DNA of 31,484 nt from a virus, in IMG/VR virus record IMGVR_UViG_3300027852_001424, positions 1 to 31,484 of that record; one strand, given 5' to 3'. How positions within the stretch are numbered: position 1 is the stretch's first letter; each line of letters starts with the position of its first letter. A program made the translations under genes and the position numbers. Shown piece after piece: positions 1,839 through 31,484 of the stretch. The notes below the pieces were generated by a model. That model saw nothing but the letters and a program-made list of their open reading frames with translations, did no database searches and had not been told where the DNA came from.

Positions 1839-2024
1839 TTATCGAATTCTTTGCAACAATTCGTCCGCCTCTTTACGAAGACGCCTGTTTTCATCAACCT
1901 CACCTTTAATCATAAGGGTTAACTTGGAAACTTCTTTGTTAAAACGTTGCTGTGCCGCCCATGCAAGTATCTTTGCCATCAAATAACCGAAAACAAAACC
2001 TACACCACCGGTATACCATTCCAT
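1839..2024 (-). CDS. Small membrane protein with coiled-coil tail
   Basis: A 61-residue protein with one hydrophobic segment at about residues 6-24 (GGVGFVFGYLMAKILAWAA) followed by a charged heptad-like helix (SKLTLMIKGEVDENRRLRKEADELLQRI), so probably a bitopic inner-membrane protein with a short N-terminal side and a coiled-coil tail. The ATG overlaps the nuclease stop codon by one base (TAATG) and follows a GGGGG-type ribosome site, so it belongs to the recombination operon. I do not recognise a family. It could be a superinfection or lysis-timing factor, but the sequence only supports membrane plus coiled coil. Confidence 0.65.
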   Translation of the reverse strand: MEWYTGGVGFVFGYLMAKILAWAAQQRFNKEVSKLTLMIKGEVDENRRLRKEADELLQRIR

Positions 2025-3341: not shown

Positions 3342-3668
3342 TTATTTTTCGAGTTCGTTTTTAATAACAGCTATGTCACGGGTTATGATGTAAATATTGT
3401 CGTTGGTTTCTTTGCGAAGCCGCTCAATTTCTGCATGTCTGGCCTCGGCTGTGTCAAAGTGTTTGTCTGAATTCCAGGTAACAAACCCCATCATGAGCAC
3501 AACAAGCGGTATAAACACGAACCACGGAACTCGGTTTTTTATGGATTTCCACATGTCTTTATGCGCCTCTTCGGCTTTGCAAGAGCGTTTGAGCCTATCC
3601 ACCACAAGCGGGTGAGCTGAACAGTCCTTGCAATATTCAAGGTTATCGATTCCGCCATTATTTGGCAC
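3342..3668 (-). CDS. Bitopic membrane protein with CxxC motif and coiled coil
   Basis: A 109-codon gene when started at GTG 3668, which follows an AAGGGA site at 9 nt and overlaps the upstream gene by 11 nt. The longer TTG start at 3725 has no ribosome site and would overlap by 68 nt. The protein has an N-terminal CKDC pair and a basic region, one strong membrane segment (WFVFIPLVVLMMGFVTW, near the middle) and a C-terminal helical coiled coil (AEARHAEIERLRKETNDNIYIITRDIAVIKNEL). This layout resembles small phage membrane proteins such as XhlA-like or holin-accessory proteins, but I recognise no specific family. It is the last gene before the recombination operon promoter. Confidence 0.6.
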   Translation of the reverse strand: MPNNGGIDNLEYCKDCSAHPLVVDRLKRSCKAEEAHKDMWKSIKNRVPWFVFIPLVVLMMGFVTWNSDKHFDTAEARHAEIERLRKETNDNIYIITRDIAVIKNELEK

Positions 3669-4380
3669 TTTTACGATTCCCTTTCCGCCCCGGATGCTCG
3701 TCCGTCCAGAACTCACTGAACTCAATGACCGGTATATTTAAAATACCATGATCGCCCAGTTGATAGATGTGCTTGGAGTCCTTGTATTTTTTGTATATGT
3801 TATGGAAATGCTTGGCGAAAGTCTCGAACAGATTCGTGGTCAGCCGCCCCTTCTTCTTCGGTGTGGCCTTCATCTGCTTTCGGTTGATGTAGCTGGCAGC
3901 CTTATCTCTGAACACGTTGGTTTTAATTCGGTTCTTGTTATCCACAAATACACGGCAGTCACAACCAACAAGAATGACAGGATCAAAACCCATATAAATC
4001 GCCGCCTGAATCGACATGTACCCGGCATTTCCTTTTTTAACCTCGTTGACAATGTAGTAGGTGCTGTCCTTCATGAGGTGAAACTTGCGGTTGCGCCGAA
4101 GCGTGGTGAGTTTCATTCCCTCGAAGGTGTAGCACTGATCGTTCATGCTGCTATCGGCCCAGAGCAGGAAGTCCAACGGGTGTTTGGTGAACCCGGCGTT
4201 GCAGCCGAACAGCATTCCTTTTTCGGCCAGTTTCTTAGTGTCATAGAACGTCGAGGATACCCCGTTGCCAATGATGAACGCGGTTCTTCCAATGAACTTG
4301 TCTTTGAACAACGCAAGCCGCTTATGGGGTTCCTGGCTCAAGGGTTTTTTCCTGGACTTCAGCGTTTGCGTATCAGTCAT
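3658..4380 (-). CDS. Rossmann-fold MptE/DUF115-like protein, possible sugar transferase
   Basis: A 240-residue protein with a nucleotide-binding style N-terminal motif GRTAFIIGNGVSST (31-44), then FGCNAGF (58-64) and LDFLLWADSSM (69-79), and a second conserved block GNAGYMSIQAAIYMGF followed by DPVILVGCDC (117-142). This arrangement (GNG-x-S, GCN, D-x2-D, and a G-D near the end of a strand) is shared by the DUF115/6-hydroxymethylpterin diphosphokinase MptE-like family and by GT42 sialyltransferases (GNGPS, RCN). The actual substrate cannot be read from the sequence. The gene starts 2 nt after the giant ejection-type gene ends and is in the same direction, so it would be made late, which suits a modifier of virion or host surface glycans better than one of metabolism. 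The tail is basic. Confidence 0.6.
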   Translation of the reverse strand: MTDTQTLKSRKKPLSQEPHKRLALFKDKFIGRTAFIIGNGVSSTFYDTKKLAEKGMLFGCNAGFTKHPLDFLLWADSSMNDQCYTFEGMKLTTLRRNRKFHLMKDSTYYIVNEVKKGNAGYMSIQAAIYMGFDPVILVGCDCRVFVDNKNRIKTNVFRDKAASYINRKQMKATPKKKGRLTTNLFETFAKHFHNIYKKYKDSKHIYQLGDHGILNIPVIEFSEFWTDEHPGRKGNRKSAK

Positions 4381-20888: not shown

Positions 20889-21368
20889 CTAGGCTCCGTA
20901 CACAGCCGAACCGGTTTGTCCCTGGACAACACGGGTGCCGCCTTGGTTAATGTTCTGTAGAAAATCGTCGAACTTCTCACCCTCTACCGCAGCCACGCTT
21001 TTGCTCATGATCTCTTTCTTGGCCTTGTCGAGCTTCTCCACGGTACGCTTGATATCCGCCCGCTGGGAGGAATTGGGCTGTTTGCAGTAGAGCCTGCCCC
21101 ACTTCCTACCCGGAGCACCTGTGAGCCGTTTATCGAGCTCTGCAATGAGCTCAGGGTCATAGGTCACGAGCTTGTTGTTGGCGAATTCGGCCCGGAGCCC
21201 GGGTTGGCGGACCACTTCCCCGCTGATGAAGATTTTTCTGGCACACCGAAATCTCACCTTGAGGTTTTTAGCTTTGGACAGGTACACGGCCGGCTCTTGT
21301 GGCTTTGCAGCTTCTTTCTTGGCGATCTCTCGCTGCACTTCCTTCCGGTCTTGAAGAATGTCGGACAT
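20889..21368 (-). CDS. Basic virion-region protein of unknown function
   Basis: A 159-residue basic protein. It begins with a charged helix (DRKEVQREIAKKEAAK), has a beta region KNLKVRFRCARKIFISGEVVRQ, and a Lys/Arg-rich helix (SQRADIKRTVEKLDKAKKEIM) and ends in a glycine/glutamine-rich tail. It sits downstream of the major capsid gene, behind the predicted terminator, so it should be made at lower levels than the capsid protein. ATG 21368 has AAGG 9 nt upstream, located just after the terminator's U-run. I recognise no family; a head-completion or tail-attachment role is a guess from place. Confidence 0.6.
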   Translation of the reverse strand: MSDILQDRKEVQREIAKKEAAKPQEPAVYLSKAKNLKVRFRCARKIFISGEVVRQPGLRAEFANNKLVTYDPELIAELDKRLTGAPGRKWGRLYCKQPNSSQRADIKRTVEKLDKAKKEIMSKSVAAVEGEKFDDFLQNINQGGTRVVQGQTGSAVYGA

Positions 21369-26458: not shown

Positions 26459-28039
26459 TTATTGGGCTCGATAAGTGTAGCCGGTTTGAAACCCGCGCCT
26501 GGAGCGGTAGACCTCGGGAGCGACATGGTAGGGGACACGGGTGAGCTTGTTCTTTGTTGGGAGCCGCATCTTGCTGATGGCGTCCGCGAGCAGGTCCAGG
26601 AAATCATCGTTGGCCCCGTTGGGGTATTCTCGGAGTTCTTTCTTGAGCTGGTAGATTTCTCCTAAATCATCCCTTGCAAAGACCTTACCGTTTTTGAGGA
26701 AGGGTTGTATGCTATCATGGCGGTCTTTCTTGCCAGAATGGCGGCTTCTTTTGATGGGAACGATGGTGAACCGCATCTCACGGTCCTTCTTGGCTTTCTC
26801 CATGTAGAACGAGAGCCATTTGGAGAAACACACCTCTTCCACACCGATCTTCCGGATGTTGTATGCCTGCTGGAGGGCGAAGATCTTCTCGATGATTTCG
26901 TCGGGGTTCCACCATCCCCGCAGGAGTTCCTTGATGTAGAAGTTGCTCTGGGCGTCGGCCGCGAACACACCGATGGCCGTGGGGTCACCTTTACGCTTCT
27001 TCTCGGTAGCGGCCGGATCCACGAACATCATGTAGCTGAAGGGTTGGCGCCGTTTCAGCCACTCGCTATCCTCGCTGAAATATTTAAGATCGCCTGGGTT
27101 CAGTGTAACATCCCCATCGGGCACTGGATTATTCATGTAAAGACAACTAAATTTATACTCATGCTGTTTGCGACGAAGTGCATCAAGAGCTTCAGGTGGA
27201 AACTCTTCTGGAAACAAATGCTTGGTATATTCACTCCCTGTTTCTGGATCTTTTTCTTTCCAATAGGCAGAAGTGATCATCACCTCAAATGTAGGATGTT
27301 TCTTATTCTCTTGAATAAGATCATTATACAAATCATCAAACGCCCATCGCGTTCCCACAATATGATGCCACGGAAGATTATCTTTGTTAATGGATGTCGT
27401 AGAAAGCGAAGTCACATAATTTTCATAGATCTTTTGTCTTAAGGCTGCTGTTGCCACATTTTTATCATCTACTATATCATCAAAACTGATAATGTCGTAG
27501 TGACGGGAAACAATAGCTTTGTCTACAGAAGCTGTTTCAAAGGTGTGCATACGAATGGTTTTATTAGTTCGGGCAGGAGTCGTAAAATAATCGGTGGTTC
27601 CTTCCTGGCTTTTCCGAGAAGGCGTATGTTCAGGAAACAAATGTTGAAACTTCTCGTTGGTACAAAAATGAGCACGAATCTCCCGAAGAAAGGATTCGCT
27701 GTTGCCCAAGGTATCCGCATTGATACAAATGGTAATATTAGGATCCACTAACGCCATCCTGATCTTTCCGCTAACAGTGATCAGGGTGGTTTTGAAATGT
27801 TTTCTAGGATGGAGGTGAAGTTGATTCTTATAAAGATTTTTGTCATAAAATCGACACAGAGCACGATGGAAATAGTTTTTAAGTCTCTTGTATCCCAACA
27901 CGTACTTGGCAAGATAATATGTGTCCCTCAGAGCCAGTTCTCTTTCAACATCGCGCGACAAGCGGAGTTTCTGTCCCTCACTTAATCCGTCAATGATCGC
28001 GTCTTTATTTTTTAGAACATCACTTCGGGACACATGCAT
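26459..28039 (-). CDS. terL: Large terminase subunit
   Basis: A 526-residue packaging motor protein. The N-terminal ATPase has a P-loop-like HPRKHFKTT (77-85), Walker B HYDIISFDDIVDD (180-192, D187/D188) and the coupling-type GTRW (229-232). The C-terminal RNase H-fold nuclease has D341 in FVDPAAT, E401/E402 in IGVEEVC and the D478/D479/D482 set in GANDDFLDLLADAI. These are the full catalytic sets. The Walker A departs from classical GxxxxGK[ST] but keeps K83-T84. It lies upstream of portal, the usual order. ATG at 28039 directly follows the stop of the previous small gene. Confidence 0.92.
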   Translation of the reverse strand: MHVSRSDVLKNKDAIIDGLSEGQKLRLSRDVERELALRDTYYLAKYVLGYKRLKNYFHRALCRFYDKNLYKNQLHLHPRKHFKTTLITVSGKIRMALVDPNITICINADTLGNSESFLREIRAHFCTNEKFQHLFPEHTPSRKSQEGTTDYFTTPARTNKTIRMHTFETASVDKAIVSRHYDIISFDDIVDDKNVATAALRQKIYENYVTSLSTTSINKDNLPWHHIVGTRWAFDDLYNDLIQENKKHPTFEVMITSAYWKEKDPETGSEYTKHLFPEEFPPEALDALRRKQHEYKFSCLYMNNPVPDGDVTLNPGDLKYFSEDSEWLKRRQPFSYMMFVDPAATEKKRKGDPTAIGVFAADAQSNFYIKELLRGWWNPDEIIEKIFALQQAYNIRKIGVEEVCFSKWLSFYMEKAKKDREMRFTIVPIKRSRHSGKKDRHDSIQPFLKNGKVFARDDLGEIYQLKKELREYPNGANDDFLDLLADAISKMRLPTKNKLTRVPYHVAPEVYRSRRGFQTGYTYRAQ

Positions 28040-28231
28040 TTACTCAACGACCTCATACGATATATTGTATTCTCTCAACTCGCCCTCAACTTGCGTTCTC
28101 TCCATTGGAGATATGATCAAATTAGGAAATATCTTAGAAAACATGGAATACCTCCTGGAAGTGTCCATCATTTCCTGTATATATTTCTCAAGCAATTCTG
28201 GTGTCAATACGTCATCTTTAGATTTACTCAT
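28040..28231 (-). CDS. Small protein preceding terminase
   Basis: A 63-residue protein, charged and helical (LTPELLEKYIQEMMDTSRRYSMFSKIF, then SPMERTQVEGELREYNISYEVVE), whose stop codon abuts the terminase ATG. It starts 2 nt after the TAG that ends the interrupted lipoprotein gene. It could be a small terminase accessory. No family was recognised. The ribosome site AAGGA is distant (about 14 nt), so start is moderately certain. Confidence 0.6.
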   Translation of the reverse strand: MSKSKDDVLTPELLEKYIQEMMDTSRRYSMFSKIFPNLIISPMERTQVEGELREYNISYEVVE

Positions 28232-28233
28232 AA

Positions 28234-28551
28234 CTATGTTTCTTTTCCTTTCGGCTTGGTTATCTTAATCCTTCCCAGAACCTCCCGAAGTGCAAGAAAG
28301 AGGGGTCGTGAGGCTCCCAGTCCAGCAAGTCCGGCCAGCCACATGAACCAATCGTTCGCATCTTCCGTTTTTCCCAGAATGGACGATATCTGTCCCTGGG
28401 CTTTTTCTGAAAGCGGTACGACCTAAATATGGGTTTGCCCTGTTTCGGCATCGGTGGTGAGGTCGACATCTTTAACCCCCAACATTCCGCAACCTGAAAA
28501 CGGAAAAGAGAAAATAATGATCAAGAGGCCTGTTTGGATCTTTTTGTACAT
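28234..28551 (-). CDS. Lipoprotein plus C-terminal TM segment with internal TAG: possible one-piece spanin
   Basis: Not reported as one open frame because of an in-frame TAG at 28423-28425. The reading frame from ATG 28551 (CGGAG ribosome site 8 nt upstream) encodes MYKKIQTG, a hydrophobic stretch and lipobox FSGC (C21), i.e. a type II signal peptide. The ectodomain then meets TAG at codon 43. The same frame continues without another stop for 62 codons: VVPLSEKAQGQISSILGK, then the membrane segment DWFMWLAGLAGLGASRPLF (about residues 69-88), and a positively charged tail ending KPKGKET, to a final TAG at 28234-28236. N-terminal lipid anchor plus C-terminal inner-membrane segment is the design of unimolecular spanins, which fuse outer and inner membranes in lysis. 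TAG terminates portal, capsid and other genes here, so recoding is unlikely; readthrough, mutation or sequencing error are possible. Confidence 0.55.
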
Positions 28552-28552
28552 A

Positions 28553-28798
28553 TCATTTGCTCCGATCTAAATAATGATCTGCATCTTTAGCTTTTTTGGA
28601 CAAGCACCCATTTAAATACCTTTCTTCTGCAATACATTCCCAATTCCTCACCTGTCCTATAGTCACATGATCCTCATCTTCACCAATTGAAAAAAAAGCA
28701 ATCCCCCCCTTTTCGGTGTAATAACGTTCCGCTTTAATTTTAAATACCGTGTACCCTGTTCTTTTAACAACAAAAGTCTTCAGTTCAACATCTTCCAT
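28553..28798 (-). CDS. Small protein of unknown function
   Basis: An 81-residue protein from ATG 28798 (GGAG 8 nt upstream; a longer start at 28816 lacks support). Strands VELKTFVVKRTGYTVFKIKAERYY and GIAFFSIGEDEDHVTIGQV form an SH3-like or OB-like small beta fold, then a Cys-containing helix. The stop lies just before the lipoprotein ATG. No family is recognised. Confidence 0.6.
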   Translation of the reverse strand: MEDVELKTFVVKRTGYTVFKIKAERYYTEKGGIAFFSIGEDEDHVTIGQVRNWECIAEERYLNGCLSKKAKDADHYLDRSK

Positions 28799-28799
28799 T

Positions 28800-29066
28800 C
28801 TACGTACTCCAATCAATCAAATCGAACCGTGCCTTGTACCGAGCACTACCGGGGGTAAAGAACTGTCGCTTACCCGGACCGCGCTTATCCACTTCATCCC
28901 AATTCGAAAGAGGCTGTATCAGAGGGGTGTCTTCATCCATAGGCTTTGGACTACCCGCTTGGAACTTCGCTGATTTGAGTTCCGGCCCATTGAGAATTGC
29001 GTCTACTTTTTGGAGGTTCGCGTTTGTCGTCTTCAGTTTATGGACGGTTTGCTGATCGAGAACCAT
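28800..29066 (-). CDS. Small basic protein of unknown function
   Basis: An 88-residue protein with an N-terminal helix (QQTVHKLKTTNANLQKVDAILNG) and a basic, proline- and glycine-rich C-terminal half (KRGPGKRQFFTPGSARYKARFDLIDW). The ATG follows GGAGG and it ends with TAG next to the following ATG. It is in the cluster between the candidate small terminase and the terminase large subunit. I recognise no family. Confidence 0.55.
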   Translation of the reverse strand: MVLDQQTVHKLKTTNANLQKVDAILNGPELKSAKFQAGSPKPMDEDTPLIQPLSNWDEVDKRGPGKRQFFTPGSARYKARFDLIDWST

Positions 29067-29857: not shown

Positions 29858-30556
29858 ATGAGCAATAATCTTGTTTCCATATGCATGCCCTATTTCAACC
29901 GTATTGAACCACTTAAAAAGACTTTACAATCATACCAAGATTGCGGGTACTTCGAATCAAAGACTTTTTCGGTGGAGGTTTGTATTTGCGATGACGGGTC
30001 CACCAAGGAGCCGATCACAGAGATTGAGCCGCGTCCATGGCTCAAAACGCTCCAACTTCCAGCGAAGGAGTCCTGGAAATGCGCTTGCGTTCCCATCAAC
30101 CGGTCCGTGGAGATGTCTTCAGGGGCGCTTATCTTGCTCACCAGCCCGGAGGTCATGCACCCCAAACCCATCCTCTGGGAAATGTTCAGCAAACTGAGTG
30201 ACTGGAAAGACACGGTTCTTGCCTGCGTGAAGAACTTCAACGGAAACAAGATAAGCTGGTACAGCCACCCTGTGCACCGGCCTGCGCGGTACTGGTGGTG
30301 CCAGATGATGAACCGCGAACTCTTTGACAAGGTGCATGGGTTTGATGAGTCCTATCGAAACGGAAGAGGGTGGGAGGATGATGATTTTGTGGAGCGGCTT
30401 GACAAGGCGAAATCCCAATGGAAATGGATCGACGAAGACCACTATGTGGAACACCTTTTTCTGGGAGGGAAGCCTGCCGAGGTGTTACGGAAGGGTGAAA
30501 ACAAGAAACGGTTTTTCAAGAAATATGGGAAAAAGGACACGCGGGGATTTATATAA
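29858..30556 (+). CDS. GT-A fold glycosyltransferase (family 2-like)
   Basis: A 232-residue glycosyltransferase, the only plus-strand gene. VSICMPYFNR (6-15) and CICDDGST (42-49) are the nucleotide-sugar-binding strands. The NRSVEMSSGALILLTSPEV block (81-99) is where the usual DxD lies, but here reads T-S-P-E. The segment GFDESYRNGRGWEDDDFVERL (161-181) is the catalytic acceptor/ED loop as in galactosyltransferase-type C-terminal domains. The C-terminus is basic. It may glycosylate host surface glycans or phage proteins. It converges with the radical SAM gene (8-nt overlap) and diverges from the packaging operon. Opposite orientation to all others suggests a moron-type cargo gene. Confidence 0.85.
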   Translation: MSNNLVSICMPYFNRIEPLKKTLQSYQDCGYFESKTFSVEVCICDDGSTKEPITEIEPRPWLKTLQLPAKESWKCACVPINRSVEMSSGALILLTSPEVMHPKPILWEMFSKLSDWKDTVLACVKNFNGNKISWYSHPVHRPARYWWCQMMNRELFDKVHGFDESYRNGRGWEDDDFVERLDKAKSQWKWIDEDHYVEHLFLGGKPAEVLRKGENKKRFFKKYGKKDTRGFI

Positions 30557-31484
30557 AAAATTTGCTCTCAAGATGATGTACCGCCTTTACGGAAGACAGG
30601 AGATTATTGCTTTTCCAGTAGAAGCAATACCTGCACATTCCTCCGCAAAAGGGTTCTTGATTTTTTACACGGTCCATGAAGCTTGATAAATCCCGGAGCC
30701 CCAGGTTTTCTTTGGGGTATTTCCGGCCCACCTTGTCCACGGCGTATTGCACCCCGCAACACGGATAGAACTCCCCGTCCACGTCCACCTTGGGATGCAG
30801 GAGCCCCAGCCAGCATTGCCCCGATCCGCGTTTAGACACTTGGCGATCTTGTACTATCACGTTTGGGCGTTCCTGAAAAACGGAAGGAATAGGAGATGGA
30901 GAAAGGATATCATTGCCAATGCGTAGATGGGTTATTTTTCCTTCTTTCGCCATACGCACCAACTCCCAAAGGTTCCTGTTTTCGCGGTCCACTTCGCGCC
31001 ACATCCACGAGAACCCCACCCTTGCCCCTTCCGGTATAAGAGGCAGTTCCTTGCGCTCCCCGTCAAACGAGACCCGGATCCAGTCAAACATGCCCTGCTG
31101 CCTGAATATCGGAAAAGAGGAAAGATTGAGTCCGTTCGTTACGAGCCCCACCTTGATGTTGCAAGTTGTTAGATAGGCCACGAAACCCTCAAAATGGGGA
31201 TGGAGCGTGGGTTCGCCTCCCCCGGTCAGGGTAACCGCCTTCAGGCGTCCGAAACTCTGCAACTCTCCCATGATCTCCAGAAACATATCTTTGCTCATAT
31301 CCGGCATCTTCATGTCACGCTCCGACACGCAACAATACGAGCATTTCAATTGGCATCGGTTCGTCGGATTGAGCGACACATGCTCCGGCACGAACCGGTC
31401 CGCGCCCTTCCGCAACAAAGACCACAGAAGCTTGAGCGGATAATGGCCCGCCACCACCACATCATCTTTGTTCAAAACAATACC
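30549..31484 (-). CDS. Radical SAM enzyme with SPASM-like C-terminus (5' end cut by window)
   Basis: At least 308 residues counted from TTG 31475; the frame stays open to the window edge, so the true start may lie outside. The iron-sulfur motif CQLKCSYC (C41, C45, C48) binds the catalytic [4Fe-4S] cluster, GGGEPT (85-90) contacts SAM, and LVTNGL and VSFDGE are further barrel strands. C-terminal cysteines (C221, C239, C240, C277, C281, C284) form a SPASM-like auxiliary cluster site. Such enzymes often modify peptides or sugars. The convergent glycosyltransferase next door may share a pathway. Substrate is unknown. Confidence 0.85.
   Translation of the reverse strand, partial: GIVLNKDDVVVAGHYPLKLLWSLLRKGADRFVPEHVSLNPTNRCQLKCSYCCVSERDMKMPDMSKDMFLEIMGELQSFGRLKAVTLTGGGEPTLHPHFEGFVAYLTTCNIKVGLVTNGLNLSSFPIFRQQGMFDWIRVSFDGERKELPLIPEGARVGFSWMWREVDRENRNLWELVRMAKEGKITHLRIGNDILSPSPIPSVFQERPNVIVQDRQVSKRGSGQCWLGLLHPKVDVDGEFYPCCGVQYAVDKVGRKYPKENLGLRDLSSFMDRVKNQEPFCGGMCRYCFYWKSNNLLSSVKAVHHLESKFFI

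Follow-up and report, generated by a model that had tools for sequence, protein, structure and literature searches.

A small phage lipoprotein gene at a T7-like spanin position probably carries a nonsense change or base error rather than a programmed readthrough site

A lipoprotein gene with an in-frame TAG

How should a TAG be read that falls inside a small phage gene when the reading frame stays open behind it? The gene in question lies on the minus strand of the stretch analysed here (the window), a 31,484-base virus record that is apparently a fragment and encodes portal and capsid proteins of the SU10 type. An earlier note had proposed that the locus is a possible one-piece spanin hidden by the TAG, to be explained by programmed readthrough, an amber mutation or a sequencing error. 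Retranslation of 28551-28234 (minus strand) yields MYKKIQTGLLIIIFSFPFSGCGMLGVKDVDLTTDAETGQTHI, a stop, VVPLSEKAQGQISSILGKTEDANDWFMWLAGLAGLGASRPLFLALREVLGRIKITKPKGKET and a final stop, and agrees with that note on the lipobox signal peptide, the TAG at codon 43 and the 62 open codons that follow. The parts of the gene are:

28423-28551, minus strand: 5′ part of the lipoprotein gene, with ATG start, signal peptide, lipobox FSGC (Cys21) and 42 sense codons, then the in-frame TAG
28423-28425, minus strand: the in-frame TAG, codon 43; the homologous codon in the related contig L002 is CAG (Gln)
28234-28422, minus strand: 3′ part of this gene, comprising 62 codons and the final TAG, with a homologue in L002; encodes a linker, a weak hydrophobic or amphipathic C-terminal segment and a basic tail

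Together these parts fill the interval 28232-28552, which at 321 nt is the widest real gap on the minus strand of the gene map; a separate 260-nt gap in the gap listing is an artefact of one ORF omitted from the ORF list. Across all six frames of the window this is the only ORF with a lipobox signal peptide, the average in dinucleotide shuffles being 0.3.

An intact homologue in a related phage

A search with the large terminase returned a single contig, L002 (IMGVR_UViG_3300027881_002084, 4607 bases). Just upstream of its own terminase gene this contig carries, at 397-711, an uninterrupted gene for 105 residues, which is the whole form that the earlier note had suggested looking for in related phages. 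The L002 protein is 86% identical, without indels, to the two halves from the window when these are joined. It has the lipobox FAGC in the same place as FSGC, and at codon 43 the TAG of the window is matched by CAG, the codon from which an amber change had been guessed to arise. A whole copy at the corresponding position in L002 shows that the ORF in the window is not a chance one; the intact gene also excludes the readings in which the second half is never translated or the two halves are separate genes.

We compared both halves with L002 for coding constraint. dN/dS is 0.43 before the TAG and 0.30 after it, and of the 24 differences after the TAG, 15 fall on the third base of a codon, 8 on the first and 1 on the second. 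In a neutral simulation with the same number of changes placed at random, only 0.06% of the runs combine an open frame with as few residue changes. The downstream half was therefore translated during most of the time that separates the two phages. Taken together, the intact L002 protein and the coding-like evolution of both halves show by homology that the window's two halves are one gene, as had been supposed. Since the frame beyond the stop is preserved, the C-to-T change would be derived in the lineage of the window; this direction, from CAG to TAG, is suggested by two sequences, that is, by comparison with one relative. No excess decay is seen in the downstream half. A nonsense change of very recent date or an error would agree with this, and so would continued translation by suppression.

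Two further observations concern the same stretch of DNA. Synonymous divergence of the lipoprotein gene is low: 7 of its 47 fourfold sites differ, compared with 189 of 467 in the genes around it (Fisher p 0.0004). A small cassette that was exchanged recently, or an overlapping constraint, could account for this. An ORF of 69 codons in the +1 frame lies inside the gene (28260-28469, minus strand) and shares its start and stop with L002. We rejected it as an overlapping gene for want of support (dN/dS 0.50; a 4–9% chance of such an open length); it contains neither a lipobox nor a membrane segment.

Searches for further relatives gave little beyond L002. With the read-through protein as query there were no matches in viral contigs or phage records, and DNA or degenerate-codon patterns for the hydrophobic segment, the codon-43 region and the 88-aa gene described below found only the L002 contig among viral contigs. 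In genome contigs neither the portal protein nor the 88-aa pattern gave a match. A portal profile search additionally gave one contig, L005, which is too distant and has no obvious counterpart gene. The lipoprotein has no matches in PHROGs, Pfam, NCBIfam or PDB sequences, and in four distant phages none of the small genes ahead of the terminase encodes a lipoprotein. The intact homologue also matched portal proteins of mycobacteriophages, but at E 7 these matches were dismissed as chance.

Gene neighbourhood

The genes around the lipoprotein gene are:

26459-28039, minus strand: terminase large subunit, the synteny anchor; its L002 homologue is 90% identical outside an intein-like insertion
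28040-28231, minus strand: 63-aa ORF that separates the lipoprotein gene from the large terminase gene; L002 lacks it, and no function was found
28553-28816, minus strand: 87-aa ORF that separates the 88-aa gene from the lipoprotein gene; likewise lacking in L002, and with no function found
28800-29066, minus strand: 88-aa gene, kept in L002 (89 aa), at the position of the T7 small terminase gene

The lipoprotein gene comes after the conserved 88-aa gene and before the large terminase gene, and in L002 it stands directly before the latter. Both small flanking ORFs are missing from L002; small genes are thus gained and lost on both sides of the lipoprotein gene. No sequence similarity could be detected between the 88-aa protein and the T7 small terminase, and the large terminase is distant from those of named phages, with at most 28% identity among the matches listed. 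Neither the neighbours nor the other proteins scanned in this fragment match a holin or an endolysin.

In the L002 terminase an intein-like (Hint) insertion of 164 residues, which the terminase of the window lacks, precedes a cysteine (FS/C; L002:1612-2103, plus strand); it scores slightly below the curated cut-off of Pfam Hint (E 3.4e-06). Beside the packaging genes lie a glycosyltransferase gene on the opposite strand (29858-30556, plus strand) and, at the contig end, a radical SAM gene (30549-31475, minus strand). At 3342-3725 and 1839-2024 (minus strand) two small predicted proteins each combine one hydrophobic segment with a helical, probably coiled-coil tail; they are possible lysis or membrane proteins, with no family match above cut-off.

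Comparison of the intact protein with spanins

Lipoproteins are rare in phage genomes and serve as a first lead to spanins, and the prototype of the unimolecular spanins (u-spanins) is T1 gp11 (PMC6139136). Like T1 gp11, the intact protein is small, begins with a lipobox signal peptide and ends with a single C-terminal hydrophobic segment and a basic tail. Its only cysteine after the signal peptide is Cys21, which is predicted to be lipidated, and as in T1 gp11 there is no periplasmic cysteine. The two proteins share no sequence similarity (hhalign probability 0.3%). A basic n-region and a hydrophobic core are found in the signal peptides of both the window and L002. Phenylalanine at −3 of the lipobox is off consensus, and FVGC is among the listed spanin lipoboxes (PMC6139136).

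The position of the gene recalls the T7 spanin genes. In T7 the genes of the two-component spanin gp18.5/gp18.7 (Rz/Rz1) are flanked by those of the small and large terminase subunits, and here, in a T7-like order, the lipoprotein gene has the small-terminase position on one side and the large terminase gene on the other. It differs from the T7 pair in being one gene with an N-terminal lipobox and no adjacent inner-membrane i-spanin partner, and in that its embedded +1 frame encodes no lipobox or membrane segment. By the enterobacterial sorting rule, residue +2 after the lipidated cysteine directs the protein to the outer membrane unless it is Asp; here it is Gly, not Asp, and outer-membrane sorting is therefore expected. 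In the intact protein the signal peptide would be cleaved, Cys21 would be lipidated and the Gly at +2 would favour the outer membrane. The conserved hydrophobic or amphipathic C-terminal segment would then contact the inner membrane or a partner and so aid disruption of the outer membrane at lysis.

The C-terminal segment itself fits a spanin less well. The earlier note had described one transmembrane segment; a hydrophobic segment is indeed present, but by hydropathy it is only marginal. Its best 19-residue mean hydropathy is 1.35 and its estimated dG +2.3 to +2.7, compared with 2.97 and −4.0 for T1 gp11 and 2.63 and −2.6 for the LIMEzero homologue, where both scales are crude and dG comes from a simplified calculation of our own instead of a published predictor. 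The segment is thus far less hydrophobic than that of T1 gp11 (dG +2.7 vs −4.0), contains R82, P83, R89 and E90, and on these crude scales does not qualify as an inner-membrane transmembrane helix. The linker spans 43–47 residues as against 85 in T1 gp11 and 129 in the LIMEzero homologue; two-component spanins have a combined minimum of 62 periplasmic residues (PMC6139136). A u-spanin would be expected to have a periplasmic domain made mainly of beta-strands; AlphaFold2 run with two sequences (pLDDT 45) placed low-confidence strands at 26-34 and 40-46 and helices at 49-59, 63-77 and 82-94, a model too poor for a fold search.

The poor membrane helix, the short linker, the lack of a family match and the unusable model are the reasons why we do not file the protein as a u-spanin, although it may still work like one. 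The proposal of a one-piece spanin is supported in part: the lipobox and the genomic position agree with it, whereas the weak helix, a linker about half that of T1 gp11 and the missing family match fit it less well. Topology and T7-like position make a lysis-cassette lipoprotein anchored in the outer membrane the most likely identity of the intact protein; a spanin-like role, argued from the same analogy, is proposed tentatively and at somewhat less than an even chance. Another envelope lipoprotein that does not act in lysis, for example a superinfection-exclusion or assembly factor, falls only just short of an even chance. Such a protein would account for the weak transmembrane segment, the short linker and the missing family match, and for neighbours among which, unlike those expected for a unimolecular spanin, no holin or endolysin is recognised; against it stand the T7-like position beside the large terminase gene and the rarity of lipoproteins in phage genomes, where they hint at spanins.

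Origin of the TAG

The simplest reading of codon 43 is a C-to-T nonsense allele or a base-call error, and we consider it highly probable that the locus is a single lipoprotein gene interrupted at this codon by an amber allele or by a wrong consensus base, and not a site of programmed readthrough. As written, the allele would encode a 42-residue precursor that matures to a lipopeptide of 22 residues; the remaining 62 residues at the C terminus would be made at no more than background or host-suppressor levels. It resembles the classical amber alleles of phages, which likewise have a sense codon changed to TAG within an otherwise intact gene; unlike these, the window is a natural metagenomic consensus in which a base error is still possible. 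The error, under which the natural phage has an intact codon 43, forms part of this preferred reading and is by itself rather unlikely: one C-to-T difference is the sole disruption of the gene, and comparable stops are absent from the portal and terminase genes, but single-base consensus errors are generally uncommon in contigs of ordinary coverage. Reinitiation behind the stop was considered and rejected, the sole in-frame ATG past it being codon 70, with no evident ribosome-binding site and 36 residues left.

Programmed or selected readthrough, in which a few ribosomes pass a leaky TAG and make the full-length protein so that its level is tuned, would explain why the downstream half is intact and constrained, and a UAG followed by G can be moderately leaky. 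However, L002, the sole relative found, has a sense codon in place of the TAG while its downstream frame is constrained. We know of no readthrough context that TAG GTC GTA matches. The RNA fold after the TAG gives no structure signal (z −0.97; 35 of 200 shuffles fold as well or better), and ARAGORN found no tRNA genes, and hence no suppressor tRNA, in the window, apparently a fragment. Readthrough, which the earlier note had put forward as one of three readings, is thus quite improbable, and its more specific form, a leaky regulated TAG that sets the amount of a spanin-like lysis lipoprotein in this lineage and that the relative has lost or has yet to acquire, would be more improbable still.

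A TAG reassigned to an amino acid such as Gln (code 15) in the phage or its host would leave the gene intact as written. Phages that use code 15 exist (PMC9523058), and the relative has Gln at exactly codon 43. Yet at least six other clear genes of the window end in TAG (portal, capsid and those at 20889, 10453, 2934 and 28800), some directly before the next gene, and TAG read as sense would extend the portal protein by 117 residues over the next gene and the capsid protein by 33. The last stop of the lipoprotein gene itself is TAG in the window and TAA in L002, and the missing suppressor tRNA in the fragment also counts against reassignment. Its probability is close to negligible, in line with the earlier judgement that global recoding is unlikely. 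Hardly less remote is a functional truncation, in which the 42-residue product would act as a small lipopeptide like the colicin lysis proteins and the downstream half would be dispensable in this lineage: the signal peptide and lipobox ahead of the TAG are intact, but the downstream half is constrained between both phages, its changes are not in excess, and the relative keeps the whole protein.

Implications

Control of lysis timing at the step of translation termination would be new, and would follow if readthrough were true, but the evidence points the other way. On the preferred reading, a nonsense allele or base error, what appeared to be an oddity of recoding becomes an ordinary gene with a nonsense change. 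The gene and its intact homologue point to a family of small phage lipoproteins, missing from every family library searched, at the position that the spanin genes occupy in T7.
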